A DNA stretch of 64,000 nucleotides from Bacillota bacterium (lineage in GTDB: Bacteria > Bacillota > Clostridia > Saccharofermentanales > Fastidiosipilaceae): positions 1-64,000 of the forward strand of contig JASGUU010000087.1 in assembly GCA_030057555.1 (NCBI GenBank). Direction: 5' to 3'. Below are positions 1 to 34,740 of this stretch, in pieces; positions within the stretch are counted from its first letter, which is position 1; the number at the start of each line of letters is the position of its first letter. Under the pieces are notes generated by a model. That model was not told the origin of the DNA, did not search any database, and saw only the letters and a program-made list of their open reading frames with translations. The translations under genes were made by a program, and so were the position numbers.

Positions 1-118
1 AAACATCTGGTATTAGCAACCAAAGACGCCTTGAAGAGCCCGGTGCGGGAAAACCGCACGCCGGGTTCTGTGAGGGGCAGGCAGCTTCTTGAAAAAGAAG
101 CTGACCTGTCTACTCGAC
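1..118 (+). mobile_element. 3' end of a group II intron (domains V and VI)
   Basis: Positions 36-68 fold as a textbook group II domain V. GAGCCCGG (36-43) pairs with CCGGGTTC (61-68), a two-base CG bulge sits at 59-60, and TGCGG (44-48) pairs with CCGCA (54-58) around a GAAAA loop. The catalytic AGC triad is at 37-39. Domain VI follows: GAG (72-74) pairs with CTC (113-115), GGCAGG (76-81) with CCTGTC (105-110), and CAGCTTCTT with AAGAAGCTG. A112 is left unpaired six bases before the end TACTCGAC at 118 and is the candidate branch point. The rest of the intron, including any reverse transcriptase gene, lies upstream of the window. The 3' boundary is supported by comparison with the intact repeat unit at 12601-12621, which resumes as CAAAGTCCCC. 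Confidence 0.9.
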
Positions 119-290
119 AAAGTCCCCGTCTTGACCACAAAGGGGCCGTTTCTGGTCAACTTTGGGAGTTATCCAAAGAATAATTTGGAAAGCTCGCCAT
201 CTTGACCACAAAAGGTTCGTTTCTGGTCAAAACGAAGAGTAATCCAAAAAATAATTTGGAAAACTCGCCATCCTGACCATGAAGGGCGCG
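119..290 (+). repeat. 71-bp tandem hairpin repeat array, copy 1 (interrupted by the intron)
   Basis: Units recur with a period of exactly 71 bp: the landmark TTGACCA is at 131 and 202, and a variant CTGACCA is at 273. Each unit has two inverted repeats: TTGACCA...TGGTCAA around a 15-nt loop, and CCAAA...TTTGG around a short A/T loop. The same units occur at 12423-12630. The group II intron ends at the first base shared with the other array, so it appears to have inserted inside a unit. From about 291 to 488 the sequence is unique, with a GC-rich stretch at 288-335. No gene is recognised between here and 785. Confidence 0.85.
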
Positions 291-488
291 CACACCGCTG
301 CGCGGCGCGCTGGCCGTAGTGCGGCGCGCTGCTTGTCGGGATCGCCTTAAACTTACTGCTTCAGGTCAACAGAACCTGGATTGCTTCACTATCTCCTGGA
401 AAGTGCCAGGCTGTGCCAGGCATCCTCGCTGCCCGTTATTCTATCGGATATCGTTCACATTCCGGCAGCTTGTGAGGCTGATCGCCAC

Positions 489-610
489 GCGGGCAATGGG
501 AGAAGTGGTCTTCCAATTGCCCGCATACAGGCTGCGCTGAAACTCCGGTTTTACTGATATTTGAAAAAGGCTCAAAACAGGTTTTACTCATCCCGACAAA
601 TGTGACGTGC
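489..610 (+). repeat. Conserved noncoding tail of the 71-bp-array element, copy 1
   Basis: This block of about 122 nt matches 12665-12787 along its whole length and in both places follows a 71-bp array. It opens with a 36-nt hairpin whose outer stem GCGGGCAAT (489-497) pairs perfectly with ATTGCCCGC (516-524), with an inner GAAG/CTTC. The block ends in the motif CCCGACAAAT plus TGAYGTGC. The other copy keeps the hairpin with a compensatory pair change. Short ORFs through it are not conserved in frame. From 611 to 785 I see only the leader of the downstream gene. Confidence 0.75.
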
Positions 611-785
611 ACCCCCGCAGCATGGGGTCGTTGTTGAAGTGCATTTCGCGTGGTACACTGGGCAATCTATGTACATGCTGTGATCTGATGCCCAGGAAAC
701 GGCAGGAGTGCATTCGGGTGAAATGGTTCATATTGGTACTGGCATGTTCACTCATGTCCCTATCTGACGCTGCAGGGAGCCGCGC

Positions 786-12285: not shown

Positions 12286-12422
12286 GCGCTCACGGACAGA
12301 GAGACATGGCACAGAAACTGCAACTTTCTGCACGGCTGTATGCACGTCAAGAATGTCGGGAAGCAGGTGAGCATGTCAAGAAGACGGCCGGCAATGGGAG
12401 AAAAGCAGCTGGCGGACTTCTG

Positions 12423-12630
12423 GTGGTCAAAACGAGGAGAAATCCAAAAGACAATTTGGATTACTCGCCATCTTGACCACAAACGAACTGTTTCTGGTCA
12501 GGATCGGGAGAAATCCAAAAAATAATTTGGCAACGTTCTCATCTTGACCACAAAGGGCCTGTTTCTGGTCAGGATCGAGAGAAATCCAAAAAAGAATTTG
12601 GCAAAGTCCCCATCTTGACCACAAAGAGAC
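12423..12630 (+). repeat. 71-bp tandem hairpin repeat array, copy 2
   Basis: TTGACCA recurs at 12473, 12544 and 12615, again a period of exactly 71 bp. Two full units and two partial ends carry the same two hairpins as the array at 119-290: TTGACCA/TGGTCA and CCAAA/TTTGG. A partial match to the tail motif (GGCAATGGGAGAA) lies just upstream, near 12390. The array follows the hydrolase gene by about 140 nt and is uninterrupted, so it shows the form the first array had before the intron arrived. Confidence 0.85.
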
Positions 12631-12664
12631 CGCGTACGCTGCTGAGCGGCGTGCAGGCCGCTAC

Positions 12665-12787
12665 GCAGGCCATGGGAGAAGGGATCTTCCAGCTGCCTGC
12701 ATGCCGGCTGCGCGAAAATTTGGCTGTTTCAGGTCTTTGAGGAATGGCTCGGAAAAGGTTTTACCTGTCCCGACAAATATGATGTGC
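12665..12787 (+). repeat. Conserved noncoding tail of the 71-bp-array element, copy 2
   Basis: Homologue of 489-610. The opening hairpin is again 36 nt long (12665-12700). Its outer stem is GCAGGC/GCCTGC, where copy 1 has GCGGGC/GCCCGC, so the third pair changed from G-C to A-T on both sides. The inner GAAG/CTTC is kept. The end motif CCCGACAAAT plus TGATGTGC is also kept. From 12788 to 12900 I see nothing recognisable until the ribosome site of the next gene. Confidence 0.75.
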
Positions 12788-12942
12788 CCCCTGCCCGGCC
12801 GGTTGTATCGCCACAGGCGCAGCATGACCGTTATCATATGAGAAGAACGATGACAGTTCATACAGGAGAAGACGGAAGGACCTTCGATCGAGATCACTTC
12901 AGGAGGTGAACTGCCATACTGAATATCCACTGGCAAATCAGC

Positions 12943-13473
12943 GTGCCCATATTCAAAAACGCGCTCATTCTGAAGCAGTTGGGGATTGCCATCGGAATCC
13001 CTTTTGGCATTGTCGCGCTCTTGCTCGGACTCGCATCGGGCAGAAGCGTCTATGCACTCTATGGACTGGGGCTTCTGGCCGCGCTGCTTTTCTTTACCTG
13101 GCTTTTCATCATGGTGGTCTACCGCGGGAAATACGATGCGGAATTCCAGCTGGATGCGCAGGGCGCAGTCTGCCGCACACGGCTCCGACAGGCAAAGGCG
13201 AGCCGTATCGTAAATGCTCTGGCGGTCATCCTGGGACTGCTCTACGGCAGACCCACCGTGGCGGGCGCGGGCATGCTGGCGACGTCGCGGCAGGAGGCTG
13301 CCATCACATGGAGTCGTATCACGAGAGTCAAATGCAGGCCGAAAGAGCACACCATCCTTCTTCGCGGTGGCTGGATGGAACAACTGGCCCTGTTCTGCAC
13401 GGAGGAAAACTACGCCACGGTCGAACAGGAAGTGCTCGCTCGTACGGCCCACTGTGAAAGGAACGGAAGATGA
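12943..13473 (+). CDS. Two-segment membrane protein with YcxB-like C-terminal domain
   Basis: From the GTG at 12943 this gives 176 residues: two transmembrane segments at about 12-32 and 38-60, then a soluble tail with WSRITRVKCR and LALFCTEENY blocks reminiscent of YcxB or bacterial-PH domains. The strong ribosome site AGGAGGT (12901-12907) is too far from this GTG. In the same frame it faces ATA at 12916 and CTG at 12919, which would add the peptide LNIHWQIS. The true start may therefore be non-AUG or a mutated ATG. The 3' end overlaps the next gene by 4 nt. No function is recognised. Confidence 0.7.
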   Translation: MPIFKNALILKQLGIAIGIPFGIVALLLGLASGRSVYALYGLGLLAALLFFTWLFIMVVYRGKYDAEFQLDAQGAVCRTRLRQAKASRIVNALAVILGLLYGRPTVAGAGMLATSRQEAAITWSRITRVKCRPKEHTILLRGGWMEQLALFCTEENYATVEQEVLARTAHCERNGR

Positions 13474-34453: not shown

Positions 34454-34530
34454 TGGTGGCTTCAATTGTTTTTACTCACAAAATTACAAAATTCAAAACT
34501 GTCCTTGACTTGGGGTACAGACCTTGTTTT

Positions 34531-34740
34531 GGGGCAGGAGCGGGAAAATTGGCCAGGCGTGGACAAAAATGACGCCGGTGCCCGTGTTTCGGGGCAGGAG
34601 CGGAAAAATTGTCCAGGCATGGACAAAAATGACGCCGGTGCCCGTGTTTCGGGGCAGGAACGAAAAATATGTCCAGGCATGGACAAAAATGACGCCGGTG
34701 CCCATGTTTTGGGGCAGGAGCGGAAAAATTGGCCAGGCTC
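34531..34740 (+). repeat. 60-bp tandem hairpin repeat array
   Basis: GGGGCAGGAG or a close variant starts at 34531, 34591, 34651 and 34711, a period of exactly 60 bp over about 3.5 units. Each unit has two small inverted repeats: TTGTCC...GGACAA around AGGCAT, and TGCCC...GGGCA around 8 nt. The period is a multiple of three, so ORFs remain open in several frames on both strands. None has a ribosome site, and I do not call a gene. A single diverged unit occurs at 60310-60359 on the other strand. From 34741 to 34846 the sequence is unique with no gene. Confidence 0.9.

Follow-up and report, generated by a model that had tools for sequence, protein, structure and literature searches.

Two loci of the DNA analysed here (the window: 64,000 nucleotides of contig C87 of a Bacillota bacterium) carry tandem arrays with a 71-bp period, each followed by a shared noncoding tail, and the question they raise is whether such a composite represents a mobile element, an RNA gene or a site serving the host. 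We conclude, with a probability of roughly 85%, that these repeats belong to a MITE-like, non-autonomous mobile element with a modular build like that of BOX and BrickBuilt.

Architecture of the two copies in the window

The arrays reported by the initial annotation (positions 119-290 and 12423-12630) proved real: TRF delimited them at 129-279 and 12437-12626 with 0% indels and a 71-bp period, and the paired inverted repeats (TTGACCA/TGGTCAA and CCAAA/TTTGG) lie where they had been placed. The tail is shared by both loci (489-610 versus 12665-12787, 75% identity); its core of ~122 nt stands, but the true ends lie a few bases further on, at 614 and 12791, where each copy closes in a right terminal inverted repeat (TIR). 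What had been described as a variable GC-rich spacer does differ between the copies, but is mostly a conserved module (mid) that copy 2 does not have; the head module of copy 2 had been overlooked.

Copy 1 (119-614, forward strand) consists of array, mid and tail. Its remaining array (119-290, ~2.1 units of 71 bp with two inverted repeats each) was matched by the unit HMM and by covariance model R1 (198-269, 87.7 bits), the mid module spans 327-480 (MID HMM, 148 bits), and the tail module (486-614, TAIL HMM) ends in the right TIR TCCCGACAAATgTGACGTGCACCC at 591-614. Positions 1-118 (forward strand) hold the 3' end (domains V-VI) of a group II intron located in an array unit (Rfam RF00029 at 34-118, 55.7 bits); in L010, L061, L078 and L170, too, this 3' end directly adjoins array units. 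The head side of copy 1 has been lost because the intron end interrupts the array at 118/119, right at the start of the contig. Copy 2 (12341-12791, forward strand) combines head, array and tail without mid: the head (12341-12437; HEAD HMM, 89 bits; head query matching at least 40 genome places) starts with the left TIR, whose outermost bases are degraded, and is followed by ~2.7 units of 71 bp (12413-12632; unit HMM; R1 at 12540-12611, 80.6 bits) and by the tail module with its right TIR (12661-12791; TAIL HMM at 12661-12790, 118 bits; TIR at 12768-12791, 2 mismatches). No target repeat was seen flanking copy 2.

A dispersed modular family

The genome from which the window derives (G000; a 2.9-Mb draft in 90 contigs, 96% complete) holds far more than the two copies initially counted. 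The tail (489-610) had 30 matches (E <= 0.001), of which the 29 besides itself showed 72-88% identity, and a two-unit array query gave at least 93 matches at no fewer than ~40 loci (best 40 of 89 candidates scored). Given the 30 tail matches, the resemblance between the loci stems neither from chance nor from a two-copy duplication; a recent segmental duplication of the two loci, for which nothing was found in favour, is refuted by these matches, by the array loci and by the unrelated flanks.

From the copies we built four HMMs and used them to annotate the window and 70 stretches of this genome around the matches; the head was matched 53 times, mid 43 times and the tail 44 times (52, 41 and 42 without the sister-genome stretch L038). 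The module order is head (with the left TIR), 71-bp units, mid and tail (with the right TIR); the tail lies 3' of the array on the same strand wherever both are seen, and head, mid or tail occur in fixed order and strand at most array loci. Besides partial elements and standalone arrays, 35 complete elements of 359-790 bp were recovered, in which one (5 elements), two (4), three (14), four (7), five (4) or six (1) unit matches were counted; identity among units is 0.88 within an array versus 0.78 between arrays. In 13 of the 72 own-genome clusters (three of them at contig ends) head, mid and tail all went undetected, and hence the array may have a separate history of its own; these bare arrays possibly result from decay of whole elements, or else represent an earlier, free-standing form of the array.

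Hairpin conservation within the unit

Each unit encloses a nearly invariant hairpin 1 (TTGACCA...TGGTCAA) and a hairpin 2 with its stem around CCAAA...TTTGG. Corrected mutual information over 359 units of two species (the second being a sister species, see below) ranked pair 42-57 of hairpin 2 first and 36-63 next, with 43-56 near the top. For the covariation analysis we used an alignment (A1) of 41 rows, assembled from 22 own and 6 sister units by dropping 2 own (wrong strand) and 2 sister units, swapping 2 own units for right-strand units of the same array and adding 17 sister units by hand. Two-sided changes were present in 6 of the 12 hairpin 2 pairs (41 units, both species): columns 47-62 hold CG in 32 units, AU in 4 and GC in 4, and columns 41-68 hold AU in 22 and UA in 15, whereas in the middle of the stem pairing is lacking at columns 43-66 in 31 and at columns 44-65 in 32 of the 41 units. 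The covariation score (0.146) exceeded all 500 shuffles and all slid versions of the alignment, although the counts showed no excess (350 of 500 shuffles reached the observed number of pairs with two-sided changes, and 345 of 500 that of further pair types). Taken together with the unpaired mid-stem, this indicates that inner and outer pairing have been kept, through few independent events.

Quasi-palindromes are subject to correction, in which template switching makes the arms match. It is thus conceivable, though in our view doubtful, that the two-sided changes reflect a mutational process equalizing the arms and not selection: they form few subfamilies (CCAAA/TTTGG, TACAAA/TTTGTA and ATGGCAA/TTGCCAT), as few events would yield. 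However, the outer pair 41-68 varies yet remains paired while the mid-stem columns 43-66 and 44-65 are mostly unpaired, so the arms have not simply been copied onto each other.

Stable folds were predicted for two array units (z -6.3) and for one whole element (z -5.4). A reading of the tail as an RNA gene found no support, as 42 copies gave no consensus structure (-0.01 kcal/mol); the structured module is the array hairpin instead.

Terminal repeats and target duplications

The elements described so far (type 1) are bounded by TIRs of ~24 bp (at the head and tail ends, GGGTGCACGTCA...TGTCGGGA / TCCCGACAAATATGACGTGCACCC). With at most one mismatch, GGGTGCACGTCA occurs at 64 places of the genome, against 9 for the control, and the 24-mer of the right end, with up to three mismatches, at 32 places, against none for its reversed control. 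Among 31 copies with both ends, 8 share one flank, as they are nested in an element of a second type (or in a place where only the left side of the latter remains), and were excluded from the target-repeat test. Of the 23 independent copies kept, four (L015, L024, L030 and L036) have a direct repeat of at least 7 nt at their ends, versus 1 of 506 mismatched flank pairs, and in the other 19 no target repeat reaches 6 nt; L012 and L072 have matches that are out of place or inexact, and the 11-nt repeat of L012, displaced by 10 nt, was left out of the count. The best-preserved copies fit a target duplication of ~9 bp.

In the second type of element, arrays and the inner head (from about model position 17) lie between different ends (TACACGTCCGGCACCC..), namely TACACGTCCGGCACCCCTG... 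and ...CTACAGGGTGCCGGACGTGTA, and the associated duplications are of 6 bp. The type-2 TIR pattern was found at 36 places versus 3 for the control. Exact 6-bp direct repeats, read by eye, stand outside the ends of five of eight elements (TTACCA in L029, ATGTAA in L014, GTACAG in L051, CTGGAC in L148 and TCTCAG in L074), while the repeat is imperfect in L076 and lacking in L147 and L157. Four composites (L014, L029, L051 and L157) carry a whole type-1 element inside a type-2 element at the same point (CAAAATGG or near, on either side), which is best read as one old insertion that later spread as a composite. Two short type-2 elements, L147 (1501-2048) and L148 (1321-1871), differ in the modules they contain (mid and tail are present in one and missing from the other), a contrast that suggests module exchange between elements.

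Distribution in the sister species and beyond

The only other genome of the genus compared, the sister MAG87_KBP ('Bacillota bacterium', JASGUW01; apparently G001), contains tens of copies with the same module order and 71-bp period. A unit pattern scan of genome contigs returned at least 66 stretches, and among the matches listed 54 are from MAG87_KBP; the other 12 are single matches in other organisms, a number close to the ~7 that we estimate for chance, and R1 matches in them were favoured by the route of selection. With the R1 unit model, 3 of the 188 genomes of the order matched, clearly so only the own genome and G001; the third, G016, gave a single borderline match (E 9.9e-4) with no 71-bp array there and was dismissed. 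Viral contigs yielded one match, scored with R1, whereas plasmids searched with copy 1 and phages searched with copy 2 yielded none.

The flanks of the two species align at ~75-90%. With both flanks found on one sister stretch, the elements of L024, L032 and L033 were not found at the corresponding sister sites (the 'empty' site of L024 is not base-perfect); sister elements near L032, L033 and L060 were not found in the own sequence, and both species carry an element at L020 and at L064. To the left of window copy 2 lies a gene that aligns to the sister stretch L171, where the next 354 bases have no unit match. These cases are examples and not rates, as the sister stretches were picked for holding arrays. 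At L025 (with L087 and L121) and L015 (with L089 and L133) the two flanks of one element align to different sister contigs, each by an array; such elements may mark rearrangement breakpoints, or assembly breaks.

The elements thus have the features of a MITE: terminal inverted repeats, a target duplication in some copies, dispersed copies that differ between relatives, and no internal transposase. The ~9-bp duplications (4/23 versus 1/506) and the species-specific insertions are what carries this reading, and together with the lack of an internal gene family they bear out the non-autonomous mobile element that the initial annotation had listed among its options.

A different history, in which the array is primary (a hairpin minisatellite spreading, or conserved, by itself, e.g., as a structured RNA or a site for the nucleoid) and was taken up by MITEs of two kinds, would account for the same 71-bp unit between two different end pairs, the 13 bare clusters, the bare arrays that adjoin the same gene in both species (L045/L082 and L061/L097) and the two-sided pair changes in hairpin 2. 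We deem it unlikely, as head, mid or tail accompany most arrays in fixed order and strand, and as the bare arrays L048 and L040 keep sequence resembling an eroded head (by eye), so that they may be decayed elements.

Genomic context

The gene context of the 72 own-genome clusters was assessed with a simple hexamer gene caller. Most copies are intergenic, and among the 56 clusters with genes on both sides 19 are in divergent, 27 in co-oriented and 10 in convergent settings. A predicted frame is overlapped by more than 60 nt in 10 of the 72 clusters, three of these frames being well-scoring (at L018, at L059 and, in the window, at 12660-13452 on the reverse strand); the tail was not found to belong to a conserved protein-coding gene. 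This is the context expected for a tolerated mobile element, and it indicates no single regulatory or terminator role.

That the element is instead a domesticated noncoding RNA or cis-regulatory element, kept for its function in the host, is very unlikely: the stable predicted folds, the retained pairing of hairpin 2 and the mostly intergenic positions would suit such a role, but the tail has no conserved fold, presence differs between sister species and no one gene context prevails.

A separate tandem array with a 60-bp unit lies at 34525-34738 of the window, and similar stretches adjoin the element in L034 and in the sister stretches L082, L084, L089, L130 and L140; it thus belongs to a second dispersed repeat family.

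A group II intron lands in the arrays

A 173-base query from the 5' end of the intron matched 10 places in the own genome, nine with a 5' junction and one truncated by a contig end. At all nine, ...TTTGG[C/A] at the 3' foot of hairpin 2 precedes the intron, and the five 3' junctions seen at the loci examined (the window, L010, L061, L078 and L170) all enter AAAGTC or AAACTC of the unit. Thus, every detected junction (nine 5', five 3') sits at one point of the 71-bp unit and none was detected elsewhere, and since each uses the 3' foot of hairpin 2, the arrays act as a landing site for the intron. TTTGGC precedes eight of the nine 5' junctions; this variant occurs in 19 of 122 own units, 3 of the 19 being themselves intron junctions.

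The intron matched the Rfam model group-II-D1D4-6. In L170 the intron carries a 500-aa open frame with RVT_1 and GIIM domains (Pfam; NCBIfam group_II_RT_mat); it has no endonuclease domain, as in class C but also in other En-minus classes. Its PDB matches were IIC, IIA and IIB maturases with similar scores, 5g2x and 6me0 among them. Contig C87 is bounded at both ends (bases 1-118 and 108515-108622) by the same group II intron in array units, and the repeated intron is the apparent cause of many of the breaks between contigs. Among the papers listed by our literature searches, none described a group II intron restricted to arrays of this kind.

We tentatively consider that the 71-bp array may be an exchangeable module, having moved between two unrelated sets of ends and also standing alone, with its pairing kept by two-sided changes and with a dedicated group II intron site, which would amount to a three-layer system of MITE, minisatellite and intron. 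In such a system the intron would insert exclusively into DNA that the host can spare and that can move as well.

Mobilization

The type-1 elements (359-790 bp) contain no transposase gene. Searches of the 96%-complete draft with TIR patterns revealed neither a transposase nor an autonomous copy bearing either TIR; collapsed repeats may hide such a copy there. For the 700-nt left arm of the type-2 elements, descent from a coding sequence was rejected, as the four composites share no long frame and neither of two translations matched a Pfam family above its threshold. An IS right end with the type-2 TIR at C22 (L151), together with IS3-like fragments in L154, was considered as the missing autonomous transposon and dropped, because the IS had inserted into a type-2 right end (C22), an array (C89) and two other places. 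IS3-like pieces lie within or beside arrays and in the type-2 right end (L016 at ~2059, L080 at 1-127, L151 at 1-127, and L154).

For the MITE-like element we envisage that a transposase acting in trans on the TIRs would have moved the copies, that units would expand or contract after insertion by slippage or recombination, and that the hairpin may be retained for a role of its base pairing, either in transcripts or in DNA extruded as a cruciform-like hairpin.

Comparison with known systems

The initial annotation suggested that a variable array with a fixed tail was no known type (neither a known IS nor a standard REP); this is wrong, as the plan is shared by BOX (PMC3049150) and BrickBuilt (PMC4596501). 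BOX of Streptococcus is built as boxA-boxBn-boxC, with TIRs, target duplications and insertion of elements into one another, and in S. suis the ends boxE/boxF also enclose the same boxB (PMC3049150). The element described here appears analogous in being modular and non-coding, with TIRs, fixed ends around a variable tandem module, two end pairs and nesting; we call the likeness analogous only, as it is one of plan and the bacterial lineage differs. Unlike BOX, it has a 71-bp unit with two hairpins, a length of 359-790 bp (versus 67-637 bp) and intron insertions in its units. BrickBuilt of Porphyromonas gingivalis is a MITE with a 'leader', a tandem array and a 'tail', and TIRs at the ends (PMC4596501); the MITE plan with ends around a tandem array is common to both, whereas the BrickBuilt repeat is of 23 nt, against 71 nt here, and hairpins that stay paired through two-sided changes, a second end type and composites set the present element apart from BrickBuilt. 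Ends around a variable tandem module being the BOX/BrickBuilt plan (the two end pairs of S. suis included), we propose no new category, but report a modular MITE of this kind in a poorly known Bacillota lineage, with a hairpin module conserved partly in its pairing and not in its letters.

Dispersed palindromic repeats serving as insertion targets are also known from REP sequences: for several IS every copy (100%) lies in a REP, and for a group II intron 2 of 9 do (PMC1525189). Unlike REPs, the palindromes here belong to an element bounded by TIRs, and it is a group II intron that specializes in them (9 of 9 detected 5' junctions). With nine 5' junctions at a single point of one repeat, the system lends itself to asking how such introns select hairpins and whether arrays in MITEs offer them safe places to insert. 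Group IIC (class C) introns insert beside DNA stem-loops, namely terminators and attC sites (PMC4424553 and PMC10190682); insertion by a stem-loop is common to both, though here it takes place at the foot of the stem itself and not beyond a spacer. To these two kinds of stem-loop that group II introns target, the arrays add a candidate third.
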